This document shows, in pieces, positions 4,396 through 39,760 of a stretch of 48,528 nt of DNA. How positions within the stretch are numbered: the stretch's first letter is position 1; every line of letters starts with the position of its first letter. The notes beneath the pieces are model-generated. The model saw only the letters and a list, made by a program, of their open reading frames with translations. It had not been told where the DNA came from and ran no database searches. Source of the stretch: a virus; the IMG/VR virus record IMGVR_UViG_3300025632_000023, positions 1 to 48,528 of that record; one strand, 5' to 3'. A program made the position numbers and the translations under genes.

Positions 4396-4469
4396 GCACC
4401 CGTAGCTCAGCTGGATAGAGCATCTGCCTTCTAAGCAGACGGTCACAGGTTCGAGTCCTGTCGGGTGTA
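4396..4469 (+). tRNA. tRNA-Arg (anticodon TCT)
   Basis: A 74-base cloverleaf with all four arms: 7-bp acceptor stem (4396-4402 with 4462-4468, first pair G-U), D-stem GCTC/GAGC, anticodon stem TCTGC/GCAGA with loop CTTCTAA and anticodon TCT at 4430-4432, and T-stem ACAGG/CCTGT with loop TTCGAGT. CCA is not encoded. It reads AGA, which is the common arginine codon throughout the phage genes here, so it probably supplements a codon less used by the host. It has its own promoter at 4326-4353. Confidence 0.96.
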
Positions 4470-4482
4470 CTAATTGAATAAA

Positions 4483-29608: not shown

Positions 29609-32600
29609 ATGGCAAACAATCTCATTGAAGAACAGATCCTTAAAGGTAGGGGTCGAATTTCCCTTTTAGCAGATGGTCACGACATCGAAGAAATAAACGA
29701 TTCGTTAGAGACCATTGAAAAAAAAAATCCCAGTCTAACCGAAGTCAATCTCGGAGCCACAGACGTTCGACCAGTAGAAGATTCGGCATCCACCTTGGAC
29801 GCTGGTTCTTCGGGTTCGTCATTAACTAGCGAGCCTACAAGAGTTATTGGGTTTTTTGATGAGCCAATTGAAGGTTCAGATGAAGATTCAATCCCTCTTC
29901 CTACAGTCGAAGACAGGGCGTTTTTTGATTCTGTTGGTTCTATAACTGAGAAGGTTATGAACGCAACCGAACGAGCTAATTATCTATATCAGTTCGGCCA
30001 GCCAATAACAGAGGGGATTGAGGGGAGACCACAAGACTTAACAGACCCCAGTAAAGTTTTAGAAGCGGCTAGAAGGATGAAGCCCGAAGAGCGTAAGTTT
30101 TATGCAAGCGCTAGATTGGATATTGCTCTTAATCTTAGAGCAAGTGAAGACCAAGACTACTTAGACAGAATTGAGCCTATTGACACTGAAATAAAATTCC
30201 TGCAAGAGAGGATTGATGCAGACGATTATCAACCTACCGTGGTCGGCGGCATGGCAGGTCCCACTTCGGTTACTTCAGGGATCGACAAAAAGAGAAAAGA
30301 TCAAGAGCAAGTAGAAGCGCTGTACCATGACAAAACAAGGATAACACATCTTACAAAGGCTCGGTATCAAGCAGACGATTTAGAAGAAGCGTATAGGCTT
30401 ATAACTGAGGAGCCTGAAAAATGGACCAAAGCGAAAAGAACTAGGTTTGGTCTGCCTAGAGAAACAGAAACCACAAAGTGGTTGGACTGGGCCTCTAAGG
30501 TTCAAGAGCTCGAAGAAAGTCTTTTCAATCACGGTCATGGTATTGCTATTGACATTGATGATGACGGCAAGACAGGGCTTGTCCATAGAGGTAGAGACAC
30601 CATGCTTGCTCTTGAGTTGATGGGCCTTACAACCCTAGACATAGCTATGTATACTGCGCTCACTGTTCAGGAGGTTAAAGGTGGCGTCTTTGACGCTCTG
30701 AGCGGAGGCTATTACGGAGAGGCTTTTGGAGATATAAACAAAACTCAAGAGGATCTCACAAAAAACTATGCTAACTGGAGCGACAGAACGAGAAAACAAA
30801 TAAGATCTAGATACACTAAAGATATGGTAACCTTCGAGGAGGAGCTCCTGATGGGGGACGCTGAATGGTATGAAGGGCTAGCCAGGTGGCAAAACCTTTT
30901 TAACGCCATAGAAAGCTCACCGTACTCAGCGATTGCTTTGACGACATTGGCTACAACTGGAAACCCATATTTGTCTGCTGGAGCCGTCTCAAGTATTAGC
31001 GCTATGGTAGAGTGGCAAGGCGCTAAAAAGATGCCTGTGTTCGATTCATTTTACATTGGAGGTGACAAGATCACGACATCCACCGACCCAGAGGTTTTCA
31101 AGCAAATCTATAAAGTGTACGAGGCAGGTGATGCCCCAGAGGATAACGGAAAGATTACACTTAAGGACGGAAGAGTGGTCAGGGTTGAGAGAAATGATTT
31201 TGCTAGGTTTGGCTATTCGTTCAACCAGGGCGTAACTGAGGGTGTTCCAGAGGTTATGGGGCTCGGAATGCTTGGCGGGCTGGTAAAGAGTGCCGCAAAA
31301 GGATCCAAGGCTGGACTGAAAGGATTCATAAAGGGTTGGGGTTTGGCAAGCGCTTATGGCTTTACAGAAGAAACACTTGAAGAAGCAACGACTGCCGTAC
31401 TTCAGGCGTGGAATAGAGGACAGTTTCTAGACGAACACTTGTCTTCCTCTGAGTACATAGCTAGGGTGGTCGAGCAGGCTGGTTCTGGAGGTATAGGTGG
31501 TGTCGGACTTGGCGGTGCTGGATATGTTGCAGCTAGAGGCAAGCAAGCGTATGACCTTGGAGGTTTGTTGGGATCAGAGGGTGGTGTTTACACCAGGATC
31601 AAAACTGGCCTGAGCGCTCAGGAAATGCTTGATTTGGTTGATATCAATGGGTTGCCTGTGGACTCAAAGTCGTTAAGAGAGGCCAAGAAGAAGTACGACG
31701 AGCTCAAAAAGAGCGGCGAAGACGTTAACGCAATTAACAACGCAAGAGCTGAGTTTGAGCAAGAGCTGAGAGACGTCTCTAATAAAATGAAAAACGGGAA
31801 GGACTTGGTTAACACCTTGATAGAGAAAGGAGAGCTACAGATTGCAGAAGACATAATGACGGCGTCCTTTTTTATGGATGAGGCTAGGAAGCGATTACAA
31901 GGGATCGATCAAGGATCGGTTGGACTTGGTGCTTTGAACCTTCAGGAAGCTGAAAAAATGCTTAAAGAAGCTCTAAAGAAAGCAGAGACTGTCTTGGCTA
32001 CTGAAGAGAAAATTACAGAAAACATAGACGGATTTAAAGCTTTAGACGAATTTGAATCTTTTCAGCTTGAGCGCTTAGAAGAGATTCGTGGGTACTTGGA
32101 CCTTAATAACGAGGGGATAGCTTCTGATCTTGGAGTGACTGTAGAACAGCTTAAAACCTTTACGGAAAAAGCTGGATTGGGGGCATTGGCCGCAGCTATG
32201 GCCGCTTCTAAAAACACTAACGGTGTTGTAAAGATTTTTGAAACATCAGAGGAGTACAACGCTGCCGTGCCGCTAGAAATACTGGCAGACAGACAGAAGA
32301 GTTTGGCTCAGTTTGTTACCACTACAAATGAGGACGGGACTACCAGCGTAGAAATCCACTTGTCTCCAAGCGCTAGGGCTGTTGACATTTTTGAGGAGGT
32401 GATTCACTACCAGGTGAAAAAAGCTGGATACACAGATGAGCAGCTGAGGGCCATGGCGGATGAGCTCCTTGCTCACGAAGATCAAGGAGTTAGACGTATC
32501 GCTGAGCAGAGAAAGGAAGAGTACGGCGATGATGCAGAAGAGATAGTAGCTGGCGTATTGAGGTCTAATCCACAGGTTAAGTTTGACAATAAAGATATTG

Positions 32601-35600
32601 CCAATCTAAACAGTGCGTTAGCCGAGAACTACACCGAAAGTAAGCTCATGGAGATTTTGCAGAAGCAATCTATCGAAAGCTTTGAGGATGTAAACCAATA
32701 CATGAAGGAATACAATGAGATGCAGCAATTGCTGGCTACTGCTGCGGTTACAGACTTAGCAGAGAGGTACTCAAGTTTAGATAACCTGACCTCTATATCA
32801 ATGGTTGAAGCTGCGGACGAGCTTGGGTTTGACTTAAATACGATCACTCTAGATCAAGTCGGAGAGCTAACAAAGTATCTCAACAACCAGGTTGGTGTTT
32901 CTACATCCTCTCTAACAAAGGGGATGTCTGCCAGTAGCTTTCCTCACCCTGAAATTATTGAGGTTCTAGACAAAGCAAAATTGCTGACCAAAGGCGGTAA
33001 GCTTCGACACGACGTAGCCGTAATAGTCATGAAGGTTGACGAAACGGGGACTAGCCCTATAGAGTACACTGATCCCACTACTGAAAAAAAATCTGAGATT
33101 ATGTTTATGGGCGGTGTCGACATGGAAAAAGCCATGGCTCAAAACCTCGCCCCTGTTTTAATTGCTGGCTCAAACCCGCAAACAGCCTCAAGAATGGAGG
33201 GCTCTCTTAGAGAGAAGTCCGAGAATGGTTATGTTGTCGTTTTGTATATGCCTATGGGTGTTGATGCCGTTAAAACTAGTGAGAAGCTGTATACTTACTC
33301 TTTAAACGAAATAAACAACAGCCTGATTAATAAAGAATACGATACTGCCACAACAGCTAAAGCTCTCATCAAAGCTTTTGAGCCATACGCTCCAAACGAT
33401 GGTACGTTTTCCGTAAGGTTTTCGGAGACTCGTTACAACGACAGGGGAGAGAAATCTGTCCGAAGGCAGACTGAATATTTTGAGACCGAGGAGGCGGCCA
33501 ATGATTTTATAAAGGAAAATAAAGCTGAATCAGAGAAGAAAAGAAACAAGTTTAATAATCCTCAAGATCAATACGATGTAATCAGAACTGCGTGGGTTGA
33601 TGGAGAATACACTGTACAGGAGACTGAGAATACGGGGTTTTATTCCAAAATGAAAAACCTCGAAGCCAAAATGCTTAAGCTTGAGGGATTAGGCCCATAC
33701 AGCAAGAAAAAATCCGATTTAGAAAATGAGGTGTTCCAACTCACGACAGAAGTGTTAGGTGACATGATCGGTGAGCGGAAGTACTACAAGGCCGATTTTT
33801 TAACCACAGAATCAAGAGAGGCTATACTTAAGAGTCTCGAAAAAAGCCTCGGTATTGACCTTACCGCACATATAGATGCAATAAAATCAGATGCGTTTAA
33901 AGGAAGAGAAAGAACAGAGTACCAAAGACAAATATTTTCTATGGCTATAGGCCAGCTGGCTAACAACCCAAAAGAAAAAGGAAGAAGTTCTTCGATGGTG
34001 CCGACTAGGTTCGGACGAACGCAATATGAGCACGGGATTTCTTTCAAGCAGGGATCCGTTACTTACAGGCAATTCACCGAACCTATCAATCCAGCCGATC
34101 TTGGCTTTACAGACGAAATACTGAACAAACCCCAAAAGCACAACAACGAGATCATTGATCAATGGTCGATACGGCAAGGAGCACAAGACAAGGTTAACAC
34201 TAAGTCTTCTAAGTTTATGGGATTGCCAGAAGGTCAGTTTACTGTTGCATGGACCGAAACCAGAAACGTAGGACACAAAGGTCTTTACACGACCCATCAA
34301 AACCACACCAAAACCTTTAATGATGGGTGGCATTTCTGGAATTGGTGGGTTTGGTATACAGGTAACGGAAGCTCAAGAGCAACCAGCGTCCTGGGAGGAT
34401 GGAACTACAGAGACCAGAGCGGAAAGAAAATCTACATTGAGGAGAACAGAAAAATACCTCAGAAGAAGCAGGCAAGATATCAAGACATGGAGCCTGGGTA
34501 TAAATCTTGGGAGCAACAAGCCACTGAAAAAAACAAAAGAGAAATTGAGGGCCGCCAAGAAAGACAAAGATCAGATGAAGTAAGGTACGATATAGCTAAG
34601 ACTCAACTGGACGAAAAACTAGCGGGAACCAACTTGACATACAGGTTGCTTGACAGCTACGTTGGCGCCTCCCGTGAGGCCGCTATCGATAATAGTTTTT
34701 ACGGGAGAAGGACAGCTGATTATGTTCAAACCGCTGAGAGATTGGGCAACGTCATGATTGGTGTTAACGAGCTATCAGAAGGAGAAATTATTTCTTGGTA
34801 TCCGAAGACATACGATTTAGCTGGGGCTCCTCTTGATGTCTACTCCAATGACTACACGTTGATGGAGGTTGCATTCAAGGAGATTCAAGGAGAAAAAGCC
34901 ACTATCCATGATGTTCGTGGGTGGCTACAGCGATACGCAAGGTTCGAGAACGAAACAGACGCGCTGGTCCACACCGTTCAGAAAACAACGGATGGCTTTA
35001 GGGTTTCCGTAGGGCTAAACGTTCACAACTCTATTGTTGATGATATGGGCCAGGAGTACGATTTTTCAAGGGGGTACAAGAGCTTCCATGAGATGATGGA
35101 AATCATTTACGATTCTAAGAATGGGGTGTACGGAGACCCATTGGATTTCTCGGAGAGTGCAAAAACAGAAGCGAAGTCGTCTCGCATTCTGCCTAACAGG
35201 TACTACGACCTGAAGGGGCAGATAGGAGCCTGGCCTGCATTTAGCAAGTGGGCCTACGGGTTTTTTGTCAACGACAAGAAGCCTATCCTAGATATTCAGC
35301 AAGAGATCTTGGAGGAGTACGGAACGATACCAGAGGAGTACAACTTCGAAGAAATAGAACAGCTTATGTACGGTCGAACACGATTCGCTATGGAAAACCT
35401 TGACGAAAAGATGCAGACCGCTAAGGAGTTTATGTTGAATGGCAACATTTCTCATATTGATCTGAGTCAGTTTATGTACGCTCTTCACGCTCAAGAAAGA
35501 AACCAAAAGATCTCAAAGACTAGACCAGACATGGAAAACGGATCTGGTATGTACGACGAAGACGCTTCTGAAATAATCAGACAGTTGGACTCCCCTGAGA

Positions 35601-37975
35601 TGCGTCAAGCAGCTAAGTTCTTCTACGATATCTTGGACGACACGAGAACTACGATGCTGGAGTACGGCCTTGAAACTCCAGAGCGGGTTGCCGCATGGAC
35701 CGAGATGTACCAGAATTACGTTCCACTACAAGGATTTGCTGAAGACGAAATGGACCCTAATTCTAATGCTTATCCAAACGGAGGGGCTGGGATGGGTATA
35801 TTCGGAAGTAAGGTAAAAGCAGCATATGGTAGAGAATCCGAAGCTTCTAACGTGTTGGCAAACATTATCATGCAGAACGCACTAGTGCATCAGCAAGCAG
35901 AAAAAAACAAAGTAGTTACATCGCTTCACGGGCTGTTCTCTTCGTTTGAAACCGATCAAGCTGCTATCCTCAACATGGAAGCACCGCTGACCAAGATGGA
36001 TCAGAACGGAGATCAGGTTGCAATGACTATGCTTGAGATGCAGTCAGACCCACACACGGTTCCAGTTAGGATAAACGGTAAGCAAGAGTTTGTTTGGTTC
36101 AAAGACCCTTACTACGCTCAATTGCTTAACGGCGCTACAAAAGAGGATATGAACACGTTTATGCGTGTTATGCGAATTCCAGTACAATTCCTTAGAGGTG
36201 TTTACACTCAATGGAACCCCGAATTCTTCATCCCTAACTTTAGCCGAGACATCCACGGTGCTGTATACAATGCGGCATCAGACCTGGAGCAAGGAAAGCT
36301 GGAAGGAGTTGAGATGAAAGGATTCAAGAGAGAAATGATATCTAACACTTTCTCTACACTAAACGTGCTGCTAAACGAGAAAGCCCTTGGCAGAGAGATG
36401 GACCCAGAAATGCAGGGGTGGTACAGCGAATGGAAAGAAGACGGAGGCCAGACTGGATGGAACTACATCCAAGATATAGGCCAGATAATGAATGCCATAT
36501 CAACTGATTCATCTGATCTTAGTGCTGGGCAGAAAGTAGGATCAAAAATATTTGAATCAGCTAAGAGTACGTTACAGTTCGTAGAAGGTGTAAACGATGC
36601 CTTTGAAAACAGCATAAGACTATCTTCATACATAACCGCCAGAAAGAGAGGGGCGTCGAGACAGCAAGCTGCTGTATTCTCAAAAAACATAACCGTAAAC
36701 TTCAACAGGCAAGGAGAGGCAGGCCCAGCAATCAACACGATGTACCTCTTCTTTAACGCTGCCGTTCAGGGTACAGCTAGAACGGGCAAGTCCCTCATTA
36801 CACCAAAAACGATTGTTGGTAAGGATGGCAAAAAGACAAAGGTTATGTCAGACACACAGAAGATAGCTGCGTGGATGGCTGGATTCTCTGGCATGTTGAC
36901 AATGGTAAACTTAGCGGTAAGCGGAGAAGATCCAGACGATGGAGTTTCTTGGTACGACAAGATTCCAGACTACGAGAAGCAGAGAAATATGATAATCTGT
37001 TATGGTCCAGAGCGGAACGACTTTATTAAGATTCCTCTCCCTTACGGATTTAACTTAGTTAACAACGTGGGTAGCACTACGGTAGAGGCGGCTACTGGAC
37101 ATAAAAGCCCTGAAGAGGCCCTTATGTTTATGGCTGGGTCTACAATATCTTCTACCTCTCCAATTACTATCGGAGGCGATCCTAGCGACCCTGTTGATAT
37201 GGCGATTAGAACAGTCGCTCCGACGATAGCTCAGGTTCCGCTGGATATAGCTATGAATAAGAGTTCGTTTAGCGGGGCTCCAGTGACTAAAACACAAAGT
37301 CCATACGGAGCACCAAAGCCAGACTCTGAAATGATGATGAGATCTCCAGAATGGCTACAACAGATTGCCAGGGACCTCAATTACGAGACTGGAGGGTCCG
37401 AGTTTGTTCCTGGAGGTGTAGACATAAACTTTGATCCTATGGTGTACGCCTTAGACCAGTACGGAGGCGGACCTCTAAGTATCCTTACCGATATGTTTAA
37501 CATAACAGAGCAAGTAACTGCAAACATTGGAGCTGGGGTCGAGAAAGCCATTGAAAACAAAAGCCTCAGAGAGCTTGCAGTAAATCCGCTCGAAAACATA
37601 AAGGCTAAGGATGTACCGATTGCTGGAGTTACCTCAACCGAGGCTAGCGAATACTACGACTTCAACGAGTTCTATGACAATAGAGACGTTGTAGAGCAGC
37701 TCTATAAAGAGCTAAGAGAAGTGCAGCAAACTGGACAGGTAATACAAGAGGAGCCAGGCAGATACAATGGTATTCAAATCCTAAAAGATCAATTAAAAGA
37801 AACAGACAAGCAGTTAAAGCTAATCCGAGAAAAAGAAAGAGAACTTCAATCTACTCTATACGATGCTGAAAACTTCGTCGATTTCCAAGGAAATTTGATC
37901 AAACTAAAGGAGTTAAGAGAAGCTAAGAGAAGGATAATGGCAAGATGGAATAAACAATATAACAGTTTTAGATAA
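29609..37975 (+). CDS. Giant polyvalent virion protein, probably injected (LPD38-like)
   Basis: A 2788-residue protein, the longest in the window. Residues about 2190-2420 hold an LPD38-like large-polyvalent-protein domain: FLRGVYTQWNPEFFIPNFSRD, later RKRGASRQQAAVFSKNITVNF with GEAGPAINTMYLFFNAAVQG. Before it, residues about 1940-2060 have SQFMYALHAQERNQKISKTR and NGSGMYDEDA, usual in such proteins. EEVIH at 929-933 looks like a zinc-protease helix whose first His is Glu, so it is probably inactive. A Trp-rich patch lies at 1572-1585. Polyvalent proteins enter the cell with the DNA and protect it or alter the host. The stop overlaps the holin start (TAATG). Confidence 0.82.
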   Translation: MANNLIEEQILKGRGRISLLADGHDIEEINDSLETIEKKNPSLTEVNLGATDVRPVEDSASTLDAGSSGSSLTSEPTRVIGFFDEPIEGSDEDSIPLPTVEDRAFFDSVGSITEKVMNATERANYLYQFGQPITEGIEGRPQDLTDPSKVLEAARRMKPEERKFYASARLDIALNLRASEDQDYLDRIEPIDTEIKFLQERIDADDYQPTVVGGMAGPTSVTSGIDKKRKDQEQVEALYHDKTRITHLTKARYQADDLEEAYRLITEEPEKWTKAKRTRFGLPRETETTKWLDWASKVQELEESLFNHGHGIAIDIDDDGKTGLVHRGRDTMLALELMGLTTLDIAMYTALTVQEVKGGVFDALSGGYYGEAFGDINKTQEDLTKNYANWSDRTRKQIRSRYTKDMVTFEEELLMGDAEWYEGLARWQNLFNAIESSPYSAIALTTLATTGNPYLSAGAVSSISAMVEWQGAKKMPVFDSFYIGGDKITTSTDPEVFKQIYKVYEAGDAPEDNGKITLKDGRVVRVERNDFARFGYSFNQGVTEGVPEVMGLGMLGGLVKSAAKGSKAGLKGFIKGWGLASAYGFTEETLEEATTAVLQAWNRGQFLDEHLSSSEYIARVVEQAGSGGIGGVGLGGAGYVAARGKQAYDLGGLLGSEGGVYTRIKTGLSAQEMLDLVDINGLPVDSKSLREAKKKYDELKKSGEDVNAINNARAEFEQELRDVSNKMKNGKDLVNTLIEKGELQIAEDIMTASFFMDEARKRLQGIDQGSVGLGALNLQEAEKMLKEALKKAETVLATEEKITENIDGFKALDEFESFQLERLEEIRGYLDLNNEGIASDLGVTVEQLKTFTEKAGLGALAAAMAASKNTNGVVKIFETSEEYNAAVPLEILADRQKSLAQFVTTTNEDGTTSVEIHLSPSARAVDIFEEVIHYQVKKAGYTDEQLRAMADELLAHEDQGVRRIAEQRKEEYGDDAEEIVAGVLRSNPQVKFDNKDIANLNSALAENYTESKLMEILQKQSIESFEDVNQYMKEYNEMQQLLATAAVTDLAERYSSLDNLTSISMVEAADELGFDLNTITLDQVGELTKYLNNQVGVSTSSLTKGMSASSFPHPEIIEVLDKAKLLTKGGKLRHDVAVIVMKVDETGTSPIEYTDPTTEKKSEIMFMGGVDMEKAMAQNLAPVLIAGSNPQTASRMEGSLREKSENGYVVVLYMPMGVDAVKTSEKLYTYSLNEINNSLINKEYDTATTAKALIKAFEPYAPNDGTFSVRFSETRYNDRGEKSVRRQTEYFETEEAANDFIKENKAESEKKRNKFNNPQDQYDVIRTAWVDGEYTVQETENTGFYSKMKNLEAKMLKLEGLGPYSKKKSDLENEVFQLTTEVLGDMIGERKYYKADFLTTESREAILKSLEKSLGIDLTAHIDAIKSDAFKGRERTEYQRQIFSMAIGQLANNPKEKGRSSSMVPTRFGRTQYEHGISFKQGSVTYRQFTEPINPADLGFTDEILNKPQKHNNEIIDQWSIRQGAQDKVNTKSSKFMGLPEGQFTVAWTETRNVGHKGLYTTHQNHTKTFNDGWHFWNWWVWYTGNGSSRATSVLGGWNYRDQSGKKIYIEENRKIPQKKQARYQDMEPGYKSWEQQATEKNKREIEGRQERQRSDEVRYDIAKTQLDEKLAGTNLTYRLLDSYVGASREAAIDNSFYGRRTADYVQTAERLGNVMIGVNELSEGEIISWYPKTYDLAGAPLDVYSNDYTLMEVAFKEIQGEKATIHDVRGWLQRYARFENETDALVHTVQKTTDGFRVSVGLNVHNSIVDDMGQEYDFSRGYKSFHEMMEIIYDSKNGVYGDPLDFSESAKTEAKSSRILPNRYYDLKGQIGAWPAFSKWAYGFFVNDKKPILDIQQEILEEYGTIPEEYNFEEIEQLMYGRTRFAMENLDEKMQTAKEFMLNGNISHIDLSQFMYALHAQERNQKISKTRPDMENGSGMYDEDASEIIRQLDSPEMRQAAKFFYDILDDTRTTMLEYGLETPERVAAWTEMYQNYVPLQGFAEDEMDPNSNAYPNGGAGMGIFGSKVKAAYGRESEASNVLANIIMQNALVHQQAEKNKVVTSLHGLFSSFETDQAAILNMEAPLTKMDQNGDQVAMTMLEMQSDPHTVPVRINGKQEFVWFKDPYYAQLLNGATKEDMNTFMRVMRIPVQFLRGVYTQWNPEFFIPNFSRDIHGAVYNAASDLEQGKLEGVEMKGFKREMISNTFSTLNVLLNEKALGREMDPEMQGWYSEWKEDGGQTGWNYIQDIGQIMNAISTDSSDLSAGQKVGSKIFESAKSTLQFVEGVNDAFENSIRLSSYITARKRGASRQQAAVFSKNITVNFNRQGEAGPAINTMYLFFNAAVQGTARTGKSLITPKTIVGKDGKKTKVMSDTQKIAAWMAGFSGMLTMVNLAVSGEDPDDGVSWYDKIPDYEKQRNMIICYGPERNDFIKIPLPYGFNLVNNVGSTTVEAATGHKSPEEALMFMAGSTISSTSPITIGGDPSDPVDMAIRTVAPTIAQVPLDIAMNKSSFSGAPVTKTQSPYGAPKPDSEMMMRSPEWLQQIARDLNYETGGSEFVPGGVDINFDPMVYALDQYGGGPLSILTDMFNITEQVTANIGAGVEKAIENKSLRELAVNPLENIKAKDVPIAGVTSTEASEYYDFNEFYDNRDVVEQLYKELREVQQTGQVIQEEPGRYNGIQILKDQLKETDKQLKLIREKERELQSTLYDAENFVDFQGNLIKLKELREAKRRIMARWNKQYNSFR

Positions 37976-38406
37976 TGAGCGAAAAAATTAAAGACACAAG
38001 GCTAGGGGATTGGCTCAAAGAAAAAGCGCCAGGCATACTAGATACCGTTGGTGACTTGCTTCCAAATCAAGGTGGCCTAGGTATAGTAAAAAATTTGCTA
38101 GACAGAGACCCTGACGTATCTCCAGAGGAAGCTAAGGCAATCGTTGATGCAGAGATCGCTTATCAAAGCAATGTTACGGAAAGATGGAAGGCAGATATGG
38201 AGAGTGATGTAAAACTAGCCAAGGTTATAAGACCGTCAATGTTAATTGCTTTGGTTGTTGTTTTTATTACTATTATGCTCTTAGACAGCCTTGATAATCA
38301 ACCATTTAACGTTAAAGATAGTTACGTATCTTTGCTAGAAGTATTAATGTTAACTGTATTCGGGGCCTACTTTGCTGGAAGGACCGTAGAAAAAACCATG
38401 AGGTGA
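37975..38406 (+). CDS. Holin, GTA_holin_3TM-like
   Basis: A 143-residue protein with two clear membrane segments, about residues 88-105 and 117-135, and an amphipathic N-part (10-45). The order WKADMESDVKLAKVIRPSML, two hydrophobic helices, then FAGRTVEK matches the holin family of gene-transfer agents and phages ('W..DM.SDS.L...VRP', 'YF.GR..EK'). It should make the lesion through which the endolysin passes. Coupled to the giant gene by TAATG and to the next gene by TGATG. Confidence 0.85.
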   Translation: MSEKIKDTRLGDWLKEKAPGILDTVGDLLPNQGGLGIVKNLLDRDPDVSPEEAKAIVDAEIAYQSNVTERWKADMESDVKLAKVIRPSMLIALVVVFITIMLLDSLDNQPFNVKDSYVSLLEVLMLTVFGAYFAGRTVEKTMR

Positions 38407-38615
38407 TGGTGGAAAATGTAAGCCACATTGAGTTTATAGGCGTGGCAATGGCACTTATAGGGGGGTGGATAAAATTTCAGGCTGAATACAATAAACTTTC
38501 TGCTAGGGTAAAATCTTTGGAGCTGGAGAACGGTGAGTTTAAGGCTGACGTAAGGCAGATGATGAAAGACATCCAGGAGATTAAACTGTTGCTTGCGAAG
38601 AACCAAGTACAATAA
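38406..38615 (+). CDS. Small membrane protein with coiled coil, lysis accessory
   Basis: A 69-residue protein: one membrane segment (about 8-24, IEFIGVAMALIGGWI) then a coiled coil (25-66). TGATG junction supports ATG 38406 over a GTG three bases upstream. The layout resembles XhlA-type holin partners and small spanin-like proteins. Sits in the lysis cassette between holin and protease. Which role applies is open. Confidence 0.75.
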   Translation: MVENVSHIEFIGVAMALIGGWIKFQAEYNKLSARVKSLELENGEFKADVRQMMKDIQEIKLLLAKNQVQ

Positions 38616-38620
38616 AAAAT

Positions 38621-39760
38621 ATGCAAATATGGATAGTAACAATTGCCCTATTGCTATCATCTTGGGCGACTGCCCAGTATGCAACAGATAGTTGTGTAGT
38701 ATTTGAGGTAGACGTACCCGCTGTAAAAATGATGGGCTATATGCCCACCAACCCAGAGTGGACGGAGATAAACTACGTCATTCACATCCATCACACTGAC
38801 AGCTTTCCAGATAGTTACCTTCCTGAAACGGTGGTATACGATGCTCATGATCACTTAAACCAAGAGCTAGAAGAGGCTATGTTTAGCTTTAATCTTATGG
38901 ATGTTGAGTATCATGACTTTGATGAATTTGAGTTGGCCCCACTGCTGGTGCAGGAGTATCTAACGTGCATCCCATACAGCTATATGGGATGGGCAAACAT
39001 GAACCAATATGTAGAGGATTTAGTGTGGGATCGTGAGATCGTCATGAATGTGCATGTGTTTCCTCAATTCTGTGCAGGGATCCTGGGGTTTGCTTGGACA
39101 GCATACTCAGAGAACACACCCATGGAGGGTGTTTGGGTAAGAACAGATGTATTCGGAAGGGTAGGCGATCACTTAACATACCCAAGGAACGAGAATAAAA
39201 CTCTGATACATGAGGTAGGCCATTACCTGGGGTTGCATCATGTGTTTAGAAATGTGGAGTATTGTGGTCAGAACCTTGGTGACTGCGAAGAATCTGGCGA
39301 CTACGTATGCGACACACCGCCCACCAAGATCAACTGGAGCTGCGAAAATCCCATATGTCCTCCTGGTTTGTACAATTATACGCCAAACAACCACATGGAT
39401 TACTACGTTGATTCTTGTAGAACAAACTTTACCGAAGGGCAGATAGAAAGAATGCACGACGTGCTCCCAGTTACGCGACCAGGCATGGTTAGTAACCCCT
39501 ACTGTGCTGGAGATATCAGTGGTGACTTCGTGGTAGGAATGAATGACATGCTTATGATGCTGGCAAACATCCAGAATCTTTACTGGGAGGAAGGCGATCT
39601 AAACGATGACGGCATCCTTAATGTTTACGACCTACAGATAATTTTAGTCAACTGGGGTAACGTATGCTTTGGCGCTGAGATAGACCCATTCTACAGAGAA
39701 GAGCAGTTTAATTACCCCAAACAAGAAAGGGGCCGAAGCCCCTTCCCGTCTAGGTGGTAA
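38621..39760 (+). CDS. Secreted M43-type metalloprotease with dockerin-like tail
   Basis: A 379-residue exported protease. Signal peptide: residues 1-18 (hydrophobic core, AXA-type site ATA before Q19). Metzincin zinc motif HExGHxxGLHH at 197-207 (H197, E198, H201, H207) and Met-turn NHMDYY with M259: the pattern of the M43 (pappalysin/cytophagalysin) family. About 13 cysteines suggest disulfides outside the cytoplasm. Residues about 297-348 carry two GD(I/L)(S/N)xDxxV dockerin-like calcium loops, common in secreted Bacteroidota proteins. It follows the holin and membrane accessory genes. Its last codons form a leftward terminator. Likely host-derived. Probable role: cutting envelope or extracellular proteins during lysis or spread. 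Confidence 0.88.
   Translation: MQIWIVTIALLLSSWATAQYATDSCVVFEVDVPAVKMMGYMPTNPEWTEINYVIHIHHTDSFPDSYLPETVVYDAHDHLNQELEEAMFSFNLMDVEYHDFDEFELAPLLVQEYLTCIPYSYMGWANMNQYVEDLVWDREIVMNVHVFPQFCAGILGFAWTAYSENTPMEGVWVRTDVFGRVGDHLTYPRNENKTLIHEVGHYLGLHHVFRNVEYCGQNLGDCEESGDYVCDTPPTKINWSCENPICPPGLYNYTPNNHMDYYVDSCRTNFTEGQIERMHDVLPVTRPGMVSNPYCAGDISGDFVVGMNDMLMMLANIQNLYWEEGDLNDDGILNVYDLQIILVNWGNVCFGAEIDPFYREEQFNYPKQERGRSPFPSRW
39715..39744 (-). terminator. Leftward terminator inside the protease gene end
   Basis: Read on the minus strand: AAGGGGC, TTCG loop, GCCCCTT, then TTTCTTGTTT-like tract. Seven paired bases (39727-39733 with 39738-39744) around a C(UUCG)G tetraloop, the classic extra-stable loop. On the plus strand no T-tract follows, so it works for the leftward ribonucleotide-reductase transcript. 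Confidence 0.8.

Follow-up and report, generated by a model that had tools for sequence, protein, structure and literature searches.

The last gene of the late operon in an uncultured virus contig encodes a predicted secreted M43 metalloprotease, and genes of this kind recur in the lysis cassettes of different phages. The contig, 48,528 nucleotides long, is referred to below as the window. With somewhat better than even confidence, we propose that the product is made late, leaves by the Sec pathway as a latent envelope protease and, at lysis, helps to take apart the outer envelope or debris. How Bacteroidota phages open the outer envelope is poorly known. That many uncultured phages carry in their lysis cassettes a conserved and common secreted protease, catalytically intact as judged from its sequence, points towards a further, proteolytic step and suggests that these phages digest envelope proteins besides the cell wall on exit.

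A lower pappalysin with a candidate latency switch

The gene and the elements that could be recognized in its product are as follows.

38621–39760, + strand: secreted M43 (lower pappalysin) metalloprotease gene, 379 aa, at the end of the late operon (PF05572, PDB profile, AF2 and Foldseek)
38621–38677, + strand: signal peptide, about residues 1–19 (by eye; hydrophobic stretch ending A-T-A-Q)
38693–38695, + strand: Cys25, candidate cysteine switch of the zymogen (position relative to promirolysin Q20-R-T-C23)
39209–39241, + strand: zinc-binding motif H197-E198-x2-H201-x5-H207 (direct reading; intact in 64/64 relatives)
39299–39316, + strand: D227 and T232, candidate catalytic-domain calcium residues (five-residue spacing as in cytophagalysin D251/T256)
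39395–39403, + strand: Met-turn M259 and tyrosine-switch Y261 (direct reading; M/Y spacing as in cytophagalysin M284/Y286)
39503–39667, + strand: dockerin-like double EF-loop domain, residues 295–349 (loops D298–D309 and D326–D337)

The preliminary description had assigned the protein to the M43 metzincins, and the profile search stays within that group: the Pfam family PF05572 (Peptidase_M43) matches with E = 2.8e-17 and 63.5 bits, against a curated cut-off of 23. A phmmer search of the PDB returned mirolysin, ulilysin and pappalysins, and a profile of the family reached mirolysin/ulilysin at E of about 1e-53. The AF2 model built from a 79-row alignment has a mean pLDDT of 86.6 (an earlier model from 17 sequences was poor, with a pLDDT of 63). 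Foldseek with this model retrieved PAPP-A, mirolysin and ulilysin at E-values of 1e-12 to 1e-9, with TM-scores of 0.57–0.68 when normalized by mirolysin or ulilysin. On the strength of these matches we assign the protein to the M43 metzincins as a ‘lower pappalysin’ (LOPAP) of the mirolysin/ulilysin type, and we predict it to be proteolytic. The zinc motif of the window protein reads HEVGHYLGLHH (residues 197–207) and fits HExxHxxGxxH with G204, a glycine that is replaced by serine in some relatives; the zinc ligands and the catalytic glutamate (HExxHxxxxxH) are intact in all 64 distinct full-length copies. Across the 79-row alignment Y261 and T232 are invariant, and D227 is conserved in at least 90% of the rows. 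The signal peptide, H197, E198, H201, H207, M259 and the two dockerin-like loops that had been read at the outset are thus borne out by direct reading, with the Pfam dockerin profile sub-threshold in the window protein, whereas the count of about 13 cysteines has to be corrected to 11.

The signal peptide, MQIWIVTIALLLSSWATA followed by Q, was read by eye in the window protein and has an equivalent layout in the relatives. Behind it lies Cys25, which is invariant in a 17-member viral alignment. The mature N-terminus is Q-D-S-C in most viral copies, matching Q20-R-T-C23 of promirolysin; the pattern Q-x(1–8)-C fits 58 of the 64 copies, and five of the remaining six have S-Q-C. Cys23 of promirolysin was demonstrated by mutation to be a latency (cysteine) switch (PMC8259862), and cytophagalysin has C24 at the equivalent place (PMC11674741). 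Since the conserved viral cysteine sits where the switch cysteine of promirolysin does, the product is likely to be exported as a latent zymogen with its zinc blocked by the candidate switch Cys25; both Sec export and latency are predictions from the sequence. The prosegment is a low-confidence region of the AF2 model.

The C-terminal tail contains two complete 12-residue EF-like loops by direct reading, and C295, D302, D309, D326 and D337 are invariant in the 17-member viral alignment. The Pfam type I dockerin profile PF00404 is sub-threshold for the window protein (E = 0.12 with the whole protein and 0.017 with the tail alone; 13–16 bits versus 22.9) and above the cut-off for one relative (L090; 27–29 bits). 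Moreover, the family profile found a solved dockerin (PDB entry 2y3n) at E = 1.8e-6. Neither TIGR04183 nor PF18962, the profiles of the type A sorting domain of T9SS cargo, matched the window protein. Longer M43 homologues of 632–709 aa occur in or near the same locus in L033, L034, L043, L044, L054 and L058, five of the six on the opposite strand and facing the holin. In L044 and L054 the C-terminal segment aligns to the final portion of the T9SS sorting domain of type A (TIGR04183, E = 0.015–0.021; PF18962, E = 0.03–0.07), every match falling below the curated cut-offs; because of this sub-threshold likeness in two longer homologues, an extracellular role is kept in consideration.

Genomic setting and recurrence in lysis cassettes

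One structural protein of the window is about 30% identical to cultured relatives from phages of Cellulophaga, Flavobacterium and Maribacter, and another window protein carries a crAss-like muzzle C-terminal domain; the hosts of these uncultured viruses are most likely to be aquatic Bacteroidota. The window also contains a tRNA-Arg gene (anticodon tct, 4396–4470) and encodes a Cpn10 (GroES) family protein. The late operon ends, in order, with a gene for a 2788-aa protein, a holin gene, a 70-aa coiled-coil gene and the M43 gene, on which a class II ribonucleotide reductase gene converges from the other strand. A scan for sigma-70 promoters gave fewer sites than in shuffled sequences. The genes with a possible part in lysis are the following.

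37975–38406, + strand: holin, 143 aa, with C-terminal membrane segments (phrog_3427, E = 2.6e-17; weak GTA_holin_3TM)
38403–38615, + strand: 70-aa protein with a short hydrophobic N-terminus and a coiled coil, possibly inner-membrane spanin-like (bZIP_1 coiled coil, E = 0.0017; phrog_739)
1092–1580, + strand: Peptidase_M15_3, 162 aa, candidate endolysin far from the holin (PF08291, 1.6e-18 among the window ORFs scanned; ORF assigned by the motif SQHMIGEALD)

The position directly behind a holin and a membrane/coiled-coil gene, which the preliminary description had pointed out, is thereby confirmed. A hydropathy scan places the hydrophobic segments of the holin at residues 88–106 and 117–135; in the same kind of scan the 70-aa protein did not reach the membrane-segment threshold. 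Its match to the Rz-like spanin family phrog_739 is weak (E = 0.006, and 0.002 for its relative in L019). The start of the 70-aa gene overlaps the holin stop by 4 nt, the M43 gene starts five bases after the 70-aa gene, and the latter is kept beside the holin in many relatives. The 2788-aa protein (29609–37975), directly upstream of the holin, carries an LPD38 large polyvalent domain towards the C-terminus, and its relatives in L002 and L005 share only about 38% identity over the aligned part. The separate M15_3 peptidase is likely to be the endolysin of the window phage. The M43 protein itself contains no peptidoglycan-cleaving domain, and we rejected it as an endolysin; the existence of a separate M15_3 candidate argues that it is not a peptidoglycan enzyme.

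Searches of IMG/VR found 17 viral stretches with relatives of the M43 protein, and 244 with a broader alignment. Among 50,697 deposited phage records there was no close relative, only one weak partial match. A genome scan with the close alignment found no cellular relative; the broader alignment retrieved cellular M43 proteins, mostly from Flavobacteriales MAGs, with at most about 42–45% identity over the catalytic domain. In a careful tree computed from a better alignment, all viral proteins lie on one side of a branch that separates them from the cellular ones (support 98/80). A quick tree had split off the long viral forms, as if phages might have captured M43 genes twice independently; the careful tree did not, and we do not argue for two captures. 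The gene had been described as captured from a Bacteroidota host. A source in this phylum is likely, the nearest cellular homologues being mostly from Flavobacteriales, but recent capture by the window phage does not hold, the gene falling on this tree within a separate and diverse clade of viral copies.

To avoid circularity, the association with lysis genes was assessed in two independently chosen sets of loci, one selected by M43 similarity alone (52 after dereplication) and the other by holin similarity alone (60 dereplicated loci with enough sequence). Recognized lysis genes lie near M43 in 40 of the 52 M43-selected loci: a phrog_3427 holin in 36, an unrelated holin in two and an Amidase_2 or DUF5675 gene in 15, the last two families being confirmed by Pfam. 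The unrelated holin that precedes M43 in L188 belongs to phrog_2359 (E = 5e-12). Conversely, M43 follows within 4.5 kb downstream of the holin in 33/60 holin-selected loci and is missing from the other 27/60. In six loci (L015, L025, L031, L062, L064 and L235) M43 is flanked by the holin on one side and by a DUF5675 or Amidase_2 gene on the other, which makes it internal to the cassette rather than just terminal in an operon; in L234 it lies upstream of the amidase. Where a close upstream gene is present, M43 overlaps it by 1–4 nt in 36 of 44 copies. M43 is thus a recurrent lysis-cassette gene across different phages.

The gene is nevertheless accessory. On the holin tree M43 appears or disappears about ten times, and supported branches force at least five of these changes, which indicates that it has repeatedly been gained or lost here. 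Broken frames occur: the gene is split in L022 and L066, and L005/L020 show a one-base difference in the signal-peptide codons, in a contig nearly identical to the window. Given the holin loci devoid of M43, the ten or so changes and the broken copies in L022 and L066, M43 is not essential for lysis. Pairwise dN/dS values between M43 copies are 0.07–0.22, indicating purifying selection; together with the 64 distinct intact copies they rule out a one-off insertion or a decaying gene. The synteny recurs under this selection, and the lysis cassette first described in the window is genuine.

In 12 of the 52 M43-selected loci there are no recognized lysis genes near M43, and a subset of these lies beside GroEL/GroES. 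L240–L248 and L017 form a viral M43 subgroup with no recognized holin nearby; M43 directly precedes the phage GroEL and GroES genes in L248 and directly follows the GroES gene in L017. The lysis cassette is therefore the usual but not the sole home of viral M43.

A proposed role at lysis and its alternatives

In the mechanism that we favour, the protease would be co-expressed with the holin from the end of the late operon and exported by the host Sec pathway to the periplasm as a latent zymogen, in which Cys25 would block the zinc. It would fold with disulfides and bound calcium into a metzincin domain followed by the dockerin-like tail. The holin would then trigger and the separate endolysin would open the peptidoglycan; the zymogen would be activated by prosegment cleavage or by contact with outside calcium, and the active enzyme would cleave proteins that keep outer envelope and debris connected, so that virion release would be accelerated or completed. 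The timing, activation trigger, substrates and effect on lysis are all proposed from the genomic context. This role is consistent with the locus counts in both sets (40/52 and 33/60), the two unrelated holins and the position between holin and cell-wall gene. It also agrees with the short overlaps (36/44), the intact catalytic residues (64/64), the low dN/dS, the signal peptide with a promirolysin-like Q-D-S-C and the phage having an M15_3 endolysin candidate of its own. In addition, there is a precedent in Listeria, a secreted metzincin of phage origin with a TIMP-like partner (PMC8235301). The family has no cultured member, however, and the 27/60 holin loci without M43, the broken copies in L022 and L066 and the 12/52 M43-selected loci away from recognized lysis genes all count against a role in lysis, as does the position in the window, where M43 ends its operon and a convergent one follows, a usual place for accessory genes.

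We may wonder whether the protease does the work of spanins, by cutting the proteins that tie the outer membrane to the cell wall. This is a special case of the role in lysis, with which its likelihood overlaps, and we hold it only tentatively. The same low confidence applies to protease-assisted lysis as a strategy of Gram-negative Bacteroidota phages, in which a latent pappalysin stored in the periplasm and switched on at lysis would perform the outer-envelope step of spanins. By its own architecture M43 is not a spanin: it has an M43 domain and no lipobox, and Cys25 lies several residues past the expected cleavage site. A simple pattern scan found a lipoprotein spanin candidate near the holin in 0/34 M43-positive loci, as would be expected if M43 took over this step, but 26 of 27 M43-less relatives also have none nearby and the other has one weak candidate. 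With 0/34 against 1/27, the comparison is uninformative on replacement. The slot occupied by M43 is filled in four M43-less relatives by an exported, barrel-like protein of 375 aa, which favours the spanin-like reading; against it, many M43 copies have a coiled-coil spanin-like gene (70 or 95 aa) alongside. This 375-aa protein, found behind the holin in L042 (10457–11584), L047, L061 and L063, has an aromatic barrel-like C-terminus (..GRAGFNYLFF) and is followed by a coiled-coil gene and then by a small exported protein. It gave no family or PDB match, and may be another outer-membrane lysis factor. A further recurrent pair within these lysis cassettes, in L009 (1516–2120) and about ten relatives, consists of a 90–95-aa membrane/coiled-coil gene and then a signal-peptide protein of 104–123 aa; a thioredoxin-like identity for the latter, suggested by a likeness seen by eye, found no family or PDB support and was dropped.

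Rather unlikely, in our view, is an extracellular matrix or biofilm protease, acting outside the cell after lysis or secreted during infection via the host type IX system, with the effect that virions can move through the matrix or neighbouring cells are exposed. The long homologues with a T9SS-like tail near the same holin (L044 and L054) would fit such a protease, as would the facts that host mirolysin is a T9SS cargo (PMC8259862) and that a different metalloprotease, of Maribacter phage Molly, has been proposed to act on the extracellular matrix (PMC8776804). The T9SS matches are all under the curated cut-offs, however, the window protein has none, and the coupling to a holin agrees more readily with release at lysis than with secretion beforehand.

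It is still more doubtful that M43 is an accessory gene unrelated to lysis, serving for instance in the shaving of surface receptors or in superinfection exclusion and placed by chance at the end of the late operon. Frequent gain and loss, the terminal position in the operon of the window and the holin-free loci with GroEL/GroES are what such a gene would show, but its placement between holin and cell-wall enzyme, its association with two unrelated holins and the 1–4 nt overlaps speak for a link to lysis, and a gene expressed late could no longer serve in superinfection exclusion. Finally, a virion-carried protease used on entry is highly improbable: the gene does belong to the half of the genome that holds the late, structural genes, but a Sec signal peptide is normally absent from virion proteins assembled in the cytoplasm, and a cysteine-rich protein with calcium loops has the make-up typical of exported proteins.

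If the protease does act at lysis, viral lysis would release extracellular protease into the environment. Viral M43 also offers a concrete gene with a predicted latency switch.

Comparison with known systems

The lower pappalysins mirolysin (Tannerella forsythia), ulilysin (Methanosarcina acetivorans) and cytophagalysin share with viral M43 the zinc motif, the Met-turn with a tyrosine at +2, the paired calcium residues and the fold, as well as, by prediction on the viral side, an N-terminal prosegment with a cysteine soon after the signal peptide. The viral proteins differ from them in being phage-encoded, in forming a separate clade (98/80), in their dockerin-like tail and in a short form without the T9SS sorting domain. 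The M43-type ‘ulilysin’ of giant viruses (Tupanvirus, mimivirus) belongs to the same fold family, but these are viruses of eukaryotes, and the protein has another domain architecture and no phage lysis cassette around it.

With canonical Gram-negative lysis (holin, endolysin and spanin) viral M43 shares the neighbourhood, where holin, Amidase_2 and coiled-coil genes belong to the usual inventory, whereas a secreted endoprotease is not among the standard components. A 2025 survey of viral lytic proteins (PMC12596118) does not use the term M43 in its main text.

In the Maribacter phages Molly and Colly, a zinc metallopeptidase has been suggested to serve in matrix degradation or progeny escape (PMC8776804). 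Like viral M43 it is a metzincin-like protease in phages of marine Flavobacteriia, but it is matrixin-like and only 199 aa long; the Colly_1 protein is only a distant fold match (8.4e-5), and there was no tblastn match.

The closest experimental parallel comes from Listeria, where Mtz-Tim, a secreted metzincin of phage origin with a TIMP-like partner, is often found downstream of the prophage holin-lysin genes, sensitizes cells to phage lysis and raises virion release (PMC8235301, a paper whose main text does not use the term M43). The preliminary description knew of no standard phage lysis system with a protease of this kind. That remains correct in so far as M43 is not a standard component, but the novelty is tempered by this phage-derived metzincin, which lies downstream of holin-lysin genes and enhances lysis. 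The Listeria system belongs to Gram-positive prophages and its metzincin cleaves the paired TIMP-like lipoprotein, a partner that we have not identified with viral M43; what the two have in common is a secreted metzincin encoded beside lysis genes.
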